Positions 1-5,854 of a DNA stretch of 49,997 bases are shown here, piece after piece. The DNA comes from Eubacteriales bacterium. Its GTDB lineage: Bacteria; Bacillota; Clostridia; Lachnospirales; Lachnospiraceae. Under the pieces are notes generated by a model, which was given only the letters and a program-made list of their open reading frames with translations, did no database searches and was not told where the DNA came from. How positions within the stretch are numbered: position 1 is the stretch's first letter; each line of letters begins with the position of its first letter. The DNA lies in NCBI GenBank assembly GCA_030526005.1, contig JAUNDP010000017.1, positions 1 through 49,997 on the forward strand, given 5' to 3'. The translations under genes and the position numbers were made by a program.

Positions 1-731
1 TTTATCTGATCTTTTATCTGATCTGTCACAATGTCTCTCCACCTCCTGTCCTGAGAGGTACAGCGAAAATACTTTTCCAGATACGTTCTTATCATATAAG
101 AGTCACAGATCTTTCCAGACAGAACAATCTTAAACCGTTTCCCTCTCACATCATCATACGGAATGTTATGCTGTTCCATGAAATGTATCATAAAATCCAG
201 TTTTTCTTTCAGATATTCTCCGATCATCTCCTGATATCTGCCTGCCATTTCCCCATAGGTGACCAAAACAGAGATTCCCTGATAAGAAAATTGAAAACCA
301 TTTTCCTTCAGATCTTCTAAATCCAACAGTATATTTTCCTCATAAAAATCTTTTATCCTTTCTCTCCTTAATTTCATCTGATGCCAAAATTGTTCTGCTG
401 TCTTATAAAATGCTTCATCCATCTGTATTTTTTTCTTTATGTCTTTTTCTATCGCATCCAGCACAATTTTTTCTGTACAGCTTCTCCATCTGTTTTCCTG
501 CATTTTCTCTTCGCTGATCTGCGTCTCCGTTTTCATCCAGATTATTCCGTTTATACATGAGACCTCACTGAGAACTATATTCCATTTCTCCTGATGATAA
601 GAGAAAAAAAGAATATGGCCGCTAAGATCTGGATCTGTTGTCTTTGTCATCTTCCATGCAGCATATGCCGCATCTGCTTCCGCCTCGCTTAGAATGGGAT
701 TTCTTTTTTCTTCAAATTGCCTTATTTCCAT
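1..731 (-). CDS. Hsp70/actin-fold-like protein, partial (runs off left edge)
   Basis: I read this frame directly. It starts at ATG 731 behind a GGAGAGGGAG-type ribosome binding site and stays open for 243 codons to the window edge, so the C-terminus is missing. It overlaps the stop of the upstream gene by 20 bp, which indicates translational coupling. Residues near 15-60 (an alanine-rich helix, then HILFFSY and NIVLSEV strands) and near 170-235 (a long amphipathic helix, then KIVLSGK and a helix ending EKYF) follow the order of the second half of an Hsp70 nucleotide-binding domain, where a helix precedes the LVGGSSR strand. The glycine-rich adenosine motif is not conserved and I see no N-terminal DLGTT phosphate loop. 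It may be a degenerate actin-fold protein. The fold assignment is weak inference; that the gene exists is firm. Confidence 0.6.
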   Translation of the reverse strand, partial: MEIRQFEEKRNPILSEAEADAAYAAWKMTKTTDPDLSGHILFFSYHQEKWNIVLSEVSCINGIIWMKTETQISEEKMQENRWRSCTEKIVLDAIEKDIKKKIQMDEAFYKTAEQFWHQMKLRRERIKDFYEENILLDLEDLKENGFQFSYQGISVLVTYGEMAGRYQEMIGEYLKEKLDFMIHFMEQHNIPYDDVRGKRFKIVLSGKICDSYMIRTYLEKYFRCTSQDRRWRDIVTDQIKDQI

Positions 732-2225: not shown

Positions 2226-2717
2226 TCAGAGAATTTCAATCTGCGTATCTCCTTTTTCAATTTTTGCCAGAAACAGCTCGTCTCCCTTTTTCACCCTCTG
2301 TCCATCCTGTACACAGATCTTTGTCACCTCTCCCAGGCATTTCACAGATAAATTATAGGGAATCCCATCATCTTCTTTTATACTGCCAACCTCCACACCT
2401 GATTCATCATTCAGCTCTTTTCCTATACGGAGCATCATACGGTCACCCTCACTGCAGCTGAAAATTCCATCCATCGGCGCCAGAAATGCTGCTTCCTGCA
2501 CCTGTTCTTCTCCGCCCTCTGTCTGATTTCGTCTCTGTGCCAGATCTTCGCCCTGCACGCCCATTTCATCTTCCATATCAGTCAAAGATGGAGCTGTTTT
2601 TCTCTCCTCCTTTTTCATATCAATCTGTATTCCATCTTTATTCTGGTTTAAAGAAAACACGCTCAGAGAGGATTGGGATACTTTTTCAATCAATGTCAAA
2701 ATCTCTTTTATTTCCAT
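2226..2717 (-). CDS. AccB-like biotinyl/lipoyl-domain protein lacking the biotin lysine
   Basis: The protein is 163 aa. The N-terminus (MEIKEILTLIEKV) matches the start of biotin carboxyl carrier proteins of acetyl-CoA carboxylase, and the last ~80 residues form a biotinyl-type half-barrel: APMDGIF at the first strand, then GEVTKI, DGQRVKKGDELF at the end. In functional carriers the hairpin between these carries E-A-M-K-M. Here the corresponding stretch reads KEDDGI and no lysine is in place, so covalent biotinylation is not expected. No accC, accA or accD genes are nearby. It is the first gene of the leftward transcript, divergent from the ESCRT-like operon across 163 bp, with a GGAGG ribosome binding site. 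It may be a structural or binding module rather than a carboxyl carrier. Confidence 0.75.
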   Translation of the reverse strand: MEIKEILTLIEKVSQSSLSVFSLNQNKDGIQIDMKKEERKTAPSLTDMEDEMGVQGEDLAQRRNQTEGGEEQVQEAAFLAPMDGIFSCSEGDRMMLRIGKELNDESGVEVGSIKEDDGIPYNLSVKCLGEVTKICVQDGQRVKKGDELFLAKIEKGDTQIEIL

Positions 2718-2880: not shown

Positions 2881-3930
2881 ATGACAGACTTATTTCAATA
2901 TTTCAAACATAAATCACCGATACAAAATGAAAACCAGACATCTGAACAGGAGAGCTCTGATTCTCTTTCTGAGACACAGTATGAAAAAAATCGTGCGTCT
3001 GGAAATCATATTCTGGAGCAGCTCGACGATCTTGATAACGATCTGGCTTCTCTGAATTTTCCTGACACTTCTGAATACCGGGAATTTCAAAAAATTTCAA
3101 CGGACAAGCTTTCTGCCCTCAGTCAAAGTCTGATTGAATTTCCTGCTTCTGACCAGGATCTGTCGCAGACCGACAATCTGATTCAAGAAGCGCTCGATTT
3201 TTTAAATCAGGATTGTCTGGAAGAACTCAGGAAATCTTTGCTCTCTTTTGAGCACACAGATGCAGATATCCTCTCCTCTTTTATCCATTCTGCGACAAAT
3301 ACGATTTCAAAAATCTTAAATTCAGTTCTCGACTATGGCATTCATACGGCGCGCTGTGAACCTTCACAGGAACTGTATTCCGTTCGCCTCGCCAATCTGA
3401 GAAATCGTCTTCGTGCCGCAAAAGCAGAATTTGTATGCTCTCAGTGCGAAAAAAATATTATGATTCATACAAGAGAAAAAAGTCAGAAAAAACAGTGCGT
3501 GCGTGAAATCACAGATACTTCCTCCCTTGCAAAAAAGGCAGAACTGATTACCTTAAAGCAGACAATCCGAAATCTCGCCCTTGATATTGAAGATCTGCAG
3601 GCAAAATGGAATTCTCACTATGAGCTTTCTCTGATTTCCACAGATACCGATATCATCGGTCTTTCTGATTCCGAAAAATTAAAGATGCGCAAAGAGCAGG
3701 AAGAACGCCTGAAAGAAAAGGCAAAACAGATTGAAAAGAATTATGCACAGCTGCGCGACCATCTGAATGCCAGCAAAGCAGTTACCGACGAGGCAGAAAA
3801 AATCACGACCGACTTAAATCATATGTTTGGCGGAATGATGGAAAAAGAAAAGCAGGCAGAAACAGAAATTGCACGCCAGACGCAGCAGCAAAGACAGATG
3901 CAGGGACAAAAACAGCGCTCTACTGTTTAA
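2881..3930 (+). CDS. Long helical/coiled-coil protein, first gene of the ESCRT-like operon
   Basis: The protein is 349 aa, starting at ATG behind AAAGGAGG. It is almost entirely predicted helix. The first ~45 residues are polar and acidic and probably disordered. Helical segments span ~45-150. A middle section (~150-230) has several cysteines (Cys-Ser-Gln-Cys-Glu at ~195). A long charged coiled coil runs ~230-335, and the C-terminus is very rich in Gln, Lys and Arg. No transmembrane segment or signal peptide is seen. It lies 61 bp upstream of the ESCRT-III-like gene. I do not recognise the family. By position it could be a second filament-forming subunit, a membrane adaptor or a regulator of the ATPase, but sequence alone does not decide. 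Confidence 0.8.
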   Translation: MTDLFQYFKHKSPIQNENQTSEQESSDSLSETQYEKNRASGNHILEQLDDLDNDLASLNFPDTSEYREFQKISTDKLSALSQSLIEFPASDQDLSQTDNLIQEALDFLNQDCLEELRKSLLSFEHTDADILSSFIHSATNTISKILNSVLDYGIHTARCEPSQELYSVRLANLRNRLRAAKAEFVCSQCEKNIMIHTREKSQKKQCVREITDTSSLAKKAELITLKQTIRNLALDIEDLQAKWNSHYELSLISTDTDIIGLSDSEKLKMRKEQEERLKEKAKQIEKNYAQLRDHLNASKAVTDEAEKITTDLNHMFGGMMEKEKQAETEIARQTQQQRQMQGQKQRSTV

Positions 3931-3991
3931 AAATCAGATGTTTTTCAGACTTTATACCCTCAAAAAATCTCAAAAGAAAGGACAAAGTAAA

Positions 3992-4654
3992 ATGGTATTT
4001 AAAAGAAATGCTCTTTTTCAAACACGAAAAAACCATCAAAATGCAAAAAGTGTAAAACGGGATGAACTGATGGATCATATCTTTGACAGCTGTATTGCAA
4101 TTCAAACTTATATCCATGCCATGGATTCTCAGCTGGACTTATATGTCGAAAAAGCCAGACAGGCACAGAATTGTCAGAATAAAAGAGAACTCTCTTTCGC
4201 CTTCTCCAATATCCGCACTGCATGGACACAAAAGAATATTGCACAGATTATGTATGAAAACCTTTCTCAGATTCGCAGTCAGATAAAATTGACCTCTCTC
4301 ATACAGACCTTCTCATGCGATGTATCCGCAATGACAAAGCTTTGCAAAGATTTAAACAGAAATTTGAATATAAAAAAGGTAATGAAAGATTATAATGAAA
4401 TCATGCGCCCTTTGGAGACCTCCAAGCTGCAGTTTGACTATTTCAATGAAGAGCTTCTAAACTCTATGGATTCTTTTTCTCAGGGAAACATGGGGATTTC
4501 CGATGAGGAGATTGTATCTCTGATCAACGATCGCATTCCTTCTGATGCGCTTTTTTCAAAAGAGAACGATACGGTCTCCTCTCTTCCGGATTCATCCAAA
4601 AAGCAGCCCCTGAATTCTACCGATGCTCTCAGGGAACGATTGAATCAATTTTAG
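3992..4654 (+). CDS. ESCRT-III (Snf7/CHMP)-like helical protein with MIM1-like C-terminal tail
   Basis: The protein is 220 aa. ATG 3992 is chosen because AAAGGA precedes it at good spacing; an in-frame upstream start at 3869 would overlap the previous gene by 62 bp. The order of segments follows ESCRT-III: a basic N-terminus (residues 1-25), a long helical hairpin (~25-105), a helix containing LNRNLNIKKVMKDYNEIM (121-138) that resembles the CHMP segment just before the linker, an acidic region with DEEIVSLI (171-178), a disordered linker, and a final helix DALRERLNQF (211-220). That tail fits the MIM1 pattern LxxRLxxL, with Phe in the last position, which in eukaryotes and archaea binds the MIT domain of Vps4. 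The next gene encodes an MIT-like AAA ATPase, starting 12 bp after this stop. The family call is from motif and context, without a profile search. An alternative is an unrelated helical protein that converged on the tail. Confidence 0.7.
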   Translation: MVFKRNALFQTRKNHQNAKSVKRDELMDHIFDSCIAIQTYIHAMDSQLDLYVEKARQAQNCQNKRELSFAFSNIRTAWTQKNIAQIMYENLSQIRSQIKLTSLIQTFSCDVSAMTKLCKDLNRNLNIKKVMKDYNEIMRPLETSKLQFDYFNEELLNSMDSFSQGNMGISDEEIVSLINDRIPSDALFSKENDTVSSLPDSSKKQPLNSTDALRERLNQF

Positions 4655-4666
4655 GAGGTGAAAAAA

Positions 4667-5854
4667 TTGACAGAAAAGATAAACAGCAGTCACGTTTCAC
4701 AGTATCAGGCTGTCTATGATCGAGCTTACAAAAAGTATCTGCGTAGCCCCAACTCGGAAGAAGGCAAAAAATTTCTGAAACAGGCGATCGAGGCACAGAT
4801 TGCGATGGCTGATTTGTTTCCGGATTCTCCTGAAAAACCAAGCCTCGAACGGATCTATCATGCCAGACGCGCCGACGAACTGCTCTCTGTTCTGGAATCC
4901 TCCCGCACGCCCTCTGCTTCTTTTTCCAAAGAGCAGGGGCAGCAAGAACAGCCTGAACCGAATTGTTCTGAATCGGAAGAAGTAAAAAAAGCCATTGATT
5001 CCATCCGCATTATGGAAAAACCAGAGACTACGTTTCAAGATATCAAAGGTCTGGAGCATACAAAACAAAAATTGTCTGAACTGTGTATGCATGAAAATCC
5101 ACGTCAGGAAATCTATAAATATTATGGCGTCACACTGCCCCGCAAATTTTTATTTTACGGACCCCCTGGAACAGGAAAAACTATGCTGGCTCAGGCGTTC
5201 GCCAATGCCATGTTCAAAGAAGAGGAAGACTTTCCTTTTTTTCTTGTGGAAGGCAAAGATCTGATCAACTGCTATATCGGTGAGACAGCAAAGGCAATCA
5301 GCACACTGTTTCATGAAGCCAGAAAGTACCCACGCTCTGTCATCTTTATGGATGATGCCGATTCCTTTCTCCGTTCCAGAAAACTTCTGGAAAAATCAGA
5401 CGAAATCCGAAATATGACGACGCTTCTGACAGAATTGGACGGTTTCTGCAGCAAGACAGATCATGCCATTATCATCTGCGCGACAAATAATCCAGAAGCG
5501 ATTGACGATGCTGCTCTTGGACGATTTGATCAGATCATTGAGATTCCTCTCCCTGACGAGGAGGCGCGCCGGTGCATGATCTGCGATTCTTACCTGAACA
5601 CTCTGCTCCCCAATCTGTCTGACCGCATGATTGAGAAGCTTGTAACCGCTACCGAAAATTATAACGGACGTGATATTAAAAATCTGTGCCAGAAACTGAT
5701 CAAATCGTTTTGCGATACGCTGCCGGAAGGCTGCACGCTCCCATATCCAGGAAAAGTACCAGATCTGCTGCTTCAAAATACAATCTGTGATTCCAGCTCC
5801 AGCGTCGATCTAAGCCGTGTGGAAGAAATGCACCTGTGGGCGCACAGATCATGA
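4667..5854 (+). CDS. Vps4-like AAA ATPase with N-terminal MIT-like domain
   Basis: The protein is 395 aa from TTG 4667. The AGGAGG at 4653-4658 has correct spacing to this TTG, whereas a GTG at 4658 would sit inside it. Residues ~11-78 form a three-helix unit with the spacing of a Vps4 MIT domain. A linker follows, then one AAA module (~120-330) of the meiotic/Vps4-katanin type: TTFQDIKGLE, Walker A GPPGTGKT (165-172), pore loop CYIGET, Walker B VIFMDDAD (225-232), sensor 1 ATNN and a GRFD arginine finger. Two features stand out. The second Walker B acid is Asp instead of the catalytic Glu, and the first of the usual two arginine fingers is absent. No Vps4 beta-domain was recognised at the C-terminus. 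In a Vps4 system this enzyme would pull ESCRT-III subunits out of filaments on a membrane. The gene ends 44 bp from convergent carB. Confidence 0.85.
   Translation: MTEKINSSHVSQYQAVYDRAYKKYLRSPNSEEGKKFLKQAIEAQIAMADLFPDSPEKPSLERIYHARRADELLSVLESSRTPSASFSKEQGQQEQPEPNCSESEEVKKAIDSIRIMEKPETTFQDIKGLEHTKQKLSELCMHENPRQEIYKYYGVTLPRKFLFYGPPGTGKTMLAQAFANAMFKEEEDFPFFLVEGKDLINCYIGETAKAISTLFHEARKYPRSVIFMDDADSFLRSRKLLEKSDEIRNMTTLLTELDGFCSKTDHAIIICATNNPEAIDDAALGRFDQIIEIPLPDEEARRCMICDSYLNTLLPNLSDRMIEKLVTATENYNGRDIKNLCQKLIKSFCDTLPEGCTLPYPGKVPDLLLQNTICDSSSSVDLSRVEEMHLWAHRS

Follow-up and report, generated by a model that had tools for sequence, protein, structure and literature searches.

A stretch of 49,997 nucleotides from a Eubacteriales bacterium of the family Lachnospiraceae (the window; contig JAUNDP010000017.1, positions 1 to 49,997, belonging to a 2.5-Mb assembly) carries three consecutive genes, designated A, B and C, all on the forward strand. 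The product of B is probably a divergent bacterial ESCRT-III protein and that of C its MIT-AAA partner. The assignment was made from sequence comparisons and predicted structures and likens B to ESCRT-III by fold and by profile, not by curated cut-offs. If correct, what is new is the occurrence, in a small group of gut bacteria, of an ESCRT-III/Vps4-like pair, whose other described hosts are archaea and eukaryotes. The chance that these genes specify a complete, working MIM1-MIT ESCRT-III/Vps4 machine, in a host with ftsZ but without a recognised PspA, is judged to be about even.

Gene B (3992-4654) encodes an ESCRT-III-like protein of 220 amino acids. Its sequence was combined into a profile with the orthologues from two further genomes of the genus (G001, loci L013/L015, and G002, loci L014/L016; the window's genome is G000) and aligned with a reference profile of seven eukaryotic ESCRT-III proteins. 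The alignment was collinear over the full length (residues 1-220 on 1-216, 210 columns), with a global score of 23.8 (P 1.6e-4) and a local score of 27.7 (P 0.002). Scores as high were obtained in none of 250 column shuffles (global mean 3.1, standard deviation 2.1, maximum 10.0; local 12.7, 2.1 and 21.0, respectively) and none of 250 heptad-block shuffles (global 4.8, 2.8 and 13.4; local 14.3, 2.6 and 24.9), and the reversed B profile scored 4.8 globally and 14.0 locally. Two neighbouring proteins, A and a 478-amino-acid protein, gave local scores of 16.3 and 14.3. B and ESCRT-III also have in common a basic N-terminal half and an acidic C-terminal half; the isoelectric points of the two halves were 9.2-9.3 and 4.8-5.3 in all three B orthologues, a milder split than in the seven eukaryotic references.

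The AlphaFold2 model of B, built from the three sequences, contained helices at residues 23-60, 64-98, 111-122, 127-143, 153-158, 171-180 and 210-218, which is the helix order of ESCRT-III proteins. The first two form a long α1-α2 hairpin (residues 23-98; 4058-4285), predicted with a block-averaged local distance difference test score (block pLDDT) of 63-91 for residues 21-100, rising to 78-91 within residues 31-90. The α3-α4 region, which includes LNRNLNIKKVMKDYNEIM (residues 111-143; 4322-4420), had a block pLDDT of 49-63, and the helix at 171-180 was predicted confidently (block pLDDT 83). A Foldseek comparison of the model with 350,542 PDB chains placed CdvB/CdvB2 at ranks 1-8 (best E 0.061), and 21 of the best 50 of 343 matches up to E 10 were ESCRT-III or IST1. 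Because the E-values start at 0.061, the evidence here is the ranking, not the E-value. An earlier reading of this DNA made from the sequence only had claimed an ESCRT-III layout for B and an alignment of LNRNLNIKKVMKDYNEIM with the CHMP2/CHMP1 helix, and had proposed the Foldseek comparison as a check. Indeed, the layout was recovered in the full-length profile alignment and in the predicted helix order, the hairpin was present in a model whose best neighbours were ESCRT-III, and the region with LNRNLNIKKVMKDYNEIM was collinear with CHMP2A/Vps2 in the joint alignment.

The C-terminal end of B carries a MIM1-like sequence that is a candidate MIT-interacting motif. The terminal helix TDALRERLNQF (residues 210-220; 4619-4651), modelled at a block pLDDT of 42, follows a variable linker and takes the form TD(A/S)LRERLN(Q/R)F at the C-terminal end of all three orthologues. 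The pattern L..RL..[LFIMV] was sought within the 14 C-terminal residues of every stop-to-stop frame of 100 codons or more in the window, L013 and L014 (174 frames); it was present in three, which were exactly the three B orthologues. The sequence-only reading had stated that DALRERLNQF fits MIM1. Measured against the consensus D/ExxLxxRLxxLR/K, as given in the accessible part of PMC6862464, the claim held for the core LxxRLxxF, in which the Leu-Arg-Leu of MIM1 is kept, and failed for the last Leu, replaced by Phe, and for the flanks, since the acidic residue lies two rather than three positions ahead of the first Leu and no Arg or Lys follows the Phe.

Several results weigh against the assignment of B to ESCRT-III. 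The best of four weak Pfam matches to the window's B was Snf7 (E 0.0025), at 17.9 bits against a cut-off of 27.3; Snf7 was not matched up to E 1 by the other two orthologues, and weak Snf7 matches, none over the cut-off, occurred in long unrelated frames (569-812 codons) in 8 of 295 genomes. Approximately half of the profile signal resided in the tail, as B without its last 14 columns scored 17.3 locally, within the block-shuffle range, and 13.6 globally, at the block-shuffle maximum (13.4). When all frames of 150-400 residues in six loci, 88 in total, were scored as single sequences, the B scores were uneven (local/global 25.3/23.8 for L016, 22.1-22.2/18.9-19.4 for the window and 15.9/12.7 for L015). 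By global score two B orthologues ranked first and second, followed at third and fourth by two small haloarchaeal genes of locus L020 that precede an AAA gene (15.4 and 13.5), then by FtsZ, which reached 13.2 against the ESCRT-III profile, and by the third B (12.7). By local score an unrelated frame of the window (21.5) came close to the window's B, and the L015 sequence fell outside the best eight. The ESCRT-III signal is thus strong for the profile of the B family and varies from one single sequence to the next. The predicted model had a mean pLDDT of 59.5 and was mostly of low confidence past residue 100, and no Foldseek match of B reached E 0.001. The failure of Snf7 to reach its Pfam cut-off is weak counter-evidence, because Sulfolobus acidocaldarius, which has CdvB, also fell below it, and the other 13 of the 14 controls had no Snf7 match. 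With respect to the concern, raised in the earlier reading, that profiles might place B in another family, no competing Pfam family was found. A sequence search of the PDB with the B profile yielded two matches at E 10 or better, neither of them to a related protein (best E 1.7).

Escherichia coli PspA, an accepted member of the ESCRT-III superfamily, scored 17.5 locally and 9.1 globally against the same reference profile. The local score of the L015 sequence was below this value, and PspA outscored B on two sub-profiles (Vps46, local 17.1 versus 13.7; Vps2/24, global 7.9 versus 0.8), which also counts against B. It is nonetheless extremely improbable that B is a bacterial protein of the PspA/Vipp1 type. 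PspA and Vipp1 belong to the same superfamily in the wide sense, show no clear sequence similarity to B and, to our knowledge, have neither a MIM tail nor a MIT-AAA partner. The family PspA_IM30 was not one of the four families with a match to the window's B at E 10 or better, and the B profile scored 13.1 locally and 2.4 globally against E. coli PspA alone, a weak single-sequence target, values close to the means that shuffled columns gave against the ESCRT-III profile. The idea draws its appeal from the standing of PspA/Vipp1 as the known bacterial branch of the superfamily (PMC8281802, accessible part).

Gene C (4667-5854) encodes a protein of 395 amino acids, read from a TTG start, in which an MIT-like domain is predicted to precede a classic AAA ATPase. 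AlphaFold2 and hhalign delimited an MIT-like three-helix bundle at residues 7-78 (4685-4900), with helices at 7-26, 31-49 and 60-78; the best of the five models gave residues 11-80 a block pLDDT of 68-91. The region was collinear with the MIT domains of CdvC/VPS4 (hhalign P 0.0011 local, 0.0039 global), and its score was reached by none of 200 permutations locally and by one of 200 globally.

The AAA domain of C matched Pfam AAA with an E-value of 7.4e-35 when scanned from a longer start at 4658. The Walker A motif GPPGTGKT lies at 5159-5182 and the Walker B motif VIFMDD at 5339-5356, the latter located by alignment of the three C orthologues with 16 other AAA domains. This alignment showed, besides Walker A, the sensor 1, the aromatic pore-loop residue, the arginine finger and the C-terminal helix, named here by their usual roles in AAA ATPases. 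The residue before the finger Arg in C is Gly, and two residues that precede the finger sequence RF in CDC48, PAN and FtsH are missing from C as they are from Vps4, CdvC, katanin, spastin and ATAD1. The NCBIfam CdvC model scored 141-155 bits in all three orthologues against a cut-off of 650 (141 bits over residues 26-344 in the window's C); human VPS4A, at 241 bits, was also below 650. Of the 50 Foldseek matches listed for C, which covered the AAA part only, most were to p97, and the best template modelling score by target was 0.81, to spastin.

The points that speak against a Vps4-like identity of C concern both domains. For the MIT-like region, the score was reached by 3 of 200 block shuffles locally and 6 of 200 globally; after addition of two haloarchaeal sequences to the MIT reference, the scores were 17.0 locally (reached by up to 6 of 200) and 11.5 globally (up to 18 of 200). 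Mean pLDDT was 70.3 for the best model and 54-56 for the remaining four. In VPS4A a Leu of helix 3 (L64) is turned towards MIM1; its counterpart is Ala in the window's C and Leu in L015 and L016. The Pfam MIT model matched none of the three orthologues; the MIT domain of Giardia Vps4, according to the accessible part of PMC12611102, is likewise missed by databases and yet binds its partner. For the ATPase, all three orthologues have MDD in Walker B, Asp replacing the Glu that is normally catalytic. Only in the window's C did the CdvC match extend into the N-terminal domain, and the NCBIfam PAN models outscored CdvC in all three orthologues (156 versus 141 bits for the window's C). In the AAA tree C sat on a long branch and was not placed. 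It grouped with haloarchaeal AAA proteins (support 48/86), and groupings with FtsH (p 0.40), Vps4/katanin/spastin plus the haloarchaeal sequences (0.39), the D2 domain of CDC48/p97 (0.33), CdvC (0.22) and ATAD1 (0.11) were not rejected; grouping with PAN, one of seven groupings looked at, gave p 0.038. The sequence-only reading had described an MIT-like domain joined to a Vps4/katanin-type AAA module. The three-helix bundle, as a prediction, and the classic AAA domain were recovered; the Vps4/katanin branch was not, since the tree did not place C there. The MIT-like domain and the gene context favour the view that C works like Vps4.

The same evidence bears on a different explanation, in which B has no kinship with ESCRT-III and is a helical substrate or adaptor with a C-terminal docking helix, C is an AAA unfoldase acting on B or on cargo, and the likeness to ESCRT-III is convergent. 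This would accord with curated profiles (Snf7, MIT and CdvC) that stay below cut-off or silent, with the share of the B signal that lies in the tail, with Foldseek E-values of B of at least 0.06 and with an AAA subfamily of C that the tree leaves unfixed. It accounts poorly for an alignment of B that is collinear over its full length and scores above 500 of 500 shuffles, for the unprompted placing of ESCRT-III at Foldseek ranks 1-8, and for the coincidence of helix order, charge split, tail motif and an MIT-like bundle in the adjoining gene. Convergence is therefore regarded as unlikely, though it deserves some weight.

Matches of the AAA domain of C to the PADLOC models IetA (8.9e-34) and TRIP13 (3.6e-23) raise a further possibility, that the operon serves in defence, against phages or otherwise, with C as an ATPase of the IetA or TRIP13 type. 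The NCBIfam model of the IteA anti-phage ATPase, however, scored 98 bits on the window's C, below CdvC (141) and PAN (156), so the defence match appears to reflect generic AAA similarity. A and B matched no PADLOC model up to E 0.01, and in three species the locus adjoins a carB-like gene (named by eye), unlike a mobile island. A defence role is accordingly very improbable.

The B and C frames are closely spaced. The start of C was best placed at TTG 4667, 12 bp past the stop codon of B, with GTG 4658 as an alternative, and the putative ribosome-binding site of C, AGGAGG at 4653-4658, overlaps the stop codon of B, suggesting that translation of the two genes is coupled. The operon is headed by gene A (2881-3930), an open reading frame of 349 codons with no recognised domain and with orthologues in L013 and L014. 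These observations agreed with the sequence-only reading, which had placed the described gene parts at the positions found here, had put the ATPase gene 12 bp after B (true for the TTG start) and had a third gene leading the operon.

Downstream of C, on the opposite strand, lies the carB-like gene. The order A-B-C and this neighbour were kept in all three genomes of the genus, and reading frames, order and spacing were kept in G001 and G002, where the proteins were 58-65% (B), 61-62% (C) and 49-62% (A) identical to those of the window. Contamination was dropped as an explanation, the genes adjoining the carB-like gene in three assemblies. Between the window and L015, B diverged by 0.25, 0.19 and 0.54 at codon positions 1, 2 and 3, and the third position was the most divergent, with the same ranking, in all nine gene pairs; thus A, B and C appear to be proteins under selection.

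Among the genomes searched, the A-B-C gene order was limited to one Lachnospiraceae genus and was not found elsewhere. B was present in all three genomes of the genus and was recovered from 3 of 145 relatives, 1 of 391 genomes of the class and 1 of 159 of the phylum (samples that overlap in part), every match being a member of this genus. Gene A had matches in 3 of 135 relatives and in 1 of 291 genomes of the class, again in this genus only. Searches for C, in which at most 6 or 12 candidates were scored per genome, returned at E 1e-40 4 of 140 relatives, comprising the three of the genus and one with a 609-codon frame (8e-41), and at E ≤ 1e-42 1 of 295 genomes of the order, likewise of this genus. 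A scan of close relatives with two peptide patterns gave two loci in 44 stretches, both on contigs already found, and a scan of viral contigs was negative (0 of 326).

With B as an ESCRT-III protein and C as its partner, the following mechanism may be proposed. The helical hairpin would let B monomers polymerise into a filament along the cytoplasmic side of the membrane, with the MIM1-like helix protruding from it on a flexible linker. Sequence and modelled folds suggest that this helix would bind C in a groove of its N-terminal bundle, the one formed by helices 2 and 3. By analogy with Vps4/CdvC, a ring of C would then thread B through its pore at the expense of ATP, dismantling or reshaping the filament, and the reshaping would constrict, cut or reseal the membrane. 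A might recruit or cap.

An ftsZ gene, identified by eye from its translation, is located on the same contig (48620-49792, reverse strand). PspA_IM30 exceeded its cut-off in none of the three genomes of the genus versus 9 of 14 controls; a match below the cut-off (27.3 bits) was seen in G001 in a frame of 1013 codons. The system may plausibly act in membrane repair, in the release of vesicles or, beside FtsZ, in late division and septum closure, and such a role is likelier than replacement of FtsZ because ftsZ is present and PspA_IM30 is not detected over its cut-off.

The archaeal CdvB/CdvC system of the Sulfolobales likewise pairs an ESCRT-III-like protein with an MIT-AAA partner and, as stated above, supplied the best structural neighbours of B. 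The MIT domain of CdvC has LYPDS (4lcb) where the window's C has LFPDS and its two orthologues LFPEE. In contrast to the CdvB/CdvC system, the host of B and C has ftsZ, and no CdvA or winged-helix domain was recognised in Pfam scans of A, B, C and their orthologues. B is further set apart by its MIM1-like tail, as Sulfolobus CdvB, in the accessible part of PMC5840170, has a proline-rich MIM2 and no MIM1.

With eukaryotic ESCRT-III proteins of the Vps2/Did2 class and Vps4, the pair shares a C-terminal MIM1 core, LxxRLxx(L/F), as the last residues of B, collinear helices and an MIT-like bundle joined to AAA, whereas the flanks of the motif differ and the host is bacterial. The alignment also showed an AAA insertion in VPS4A and yeast Vps4 (the beta domain) that is not present in C. 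Because characterised archaeal CdvB uses MIM2 and MIM1 is of the Vps2/Did2 type, the genes may have been acquired by transfer from a eukaryote or from a eukaryote-like gut archaeon, followed by fast divergence; alternatively, the MIM1-MIT pairing may have evolved independently.

Halomicrobium plasmids (L019 5266-7245, L020 3555-6200) carry one or two genes for helical-looking proteins of 206-225 amino acids directly 5′ of an AAA gene whose product has a helical-looking N-terminus. Identity to this set was 28-30% and was confined to the AAA protein; the small proteins P0001, P0003 and P0005 gave no Snf7 match at E 0.01, and the N-termini of their AAA neighbours gave no Pfam MIT match. The plasmid genes are possibly ESCRT-like sets, which is a guess.

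Bacterial Snf7-clade proteins with a transmembrane segment have been reported near AAA ATPases, as have Vps4-like ATPases that moved to bacteria without snf7 and the displacement of Snf7 by a TPR-6TM protein (PMC11237479). Those operons combine Snf7 and AAA genes as here, but the accessible part of that report describes no MIM1-MIT pair. The sequence-only reading had held that bacterial members of the superfamily lack an MIT-AAA partner; in light of this report, the absence of any AAA partner is slightly too strong a claim, while the absence of a described MIM1-MIT pair stands. A 2024 survey confines ESCRT-III/Vps4 systems to archaea and eukaryotes in the portion accessible, and no report of a bacterial MIM1-MIT ESCRT pair was found in a search of the open-licence PMC literature. 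If the assignment is true, a bacterial version of two or three genes would be a minimal system for the cooperation of filament and AAA ATPase; it would show that bacteria can harbour and retain an ESCRT module; and the question would open of how ESCRT is used in a cell that bears FtsZ.

Gene A had no Pfam family over the cut-off, was given no function by NCBIfam, PHROGs or PADLOC, and showed no likeness to the ESCRT-III profile (global 2.4, with the local score given above). Its product is probably a recruiter or an accessory subunit. On the 5′ side of A lies a divergent gene group that encodes a protein like the biotin carboxyl carrier protein (BCCP), a membrane-like protein of 171 amino acids, a protein of 478-483 amino acids and an Hsp70-like protein. 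The BCCP-like gene (window 2226-2717, reverse strand) is present in three species and matched TIGR00531 with E 1.4e-7, at 32 bits against a cut-off of 115; the usual motif around the biotinylated lysine was not seen in its product.

The 171-amino-acid protein, which by eye appears membrane-embedded, is encoded in two species (L013 3692-4207, reverse strand; L014 11693-12208, forward strand) between the BCCP-like gene and the gene for the 482/483-amino-acid protein, a position occupied by 77 bp in the window. Directly after the gene for the 478-amino-acid protein, the window contains an Hsp70-like frame (1-710, reverse strand) inside which the contig ends; compared by eye with the 549-amino-acid protein of L013, it is without approximately 185 N-terminal residues and the glycine-rich phosphate motifs. 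Because A, B and C remain open with the codon pattern of selected genes while the window loses the membrane-like gene and the Hsp70 N-terminus, A-B-C may be a unit under selection. Between C and carB, two species carry a gene for a C-type-lectin-like protein that by eye looks secreted and has a terminal hydrophobic segment (L013 8081-8941, forward strand; L014 6901-7818, reverse strand), and the window has a 44-bp gap in its place.

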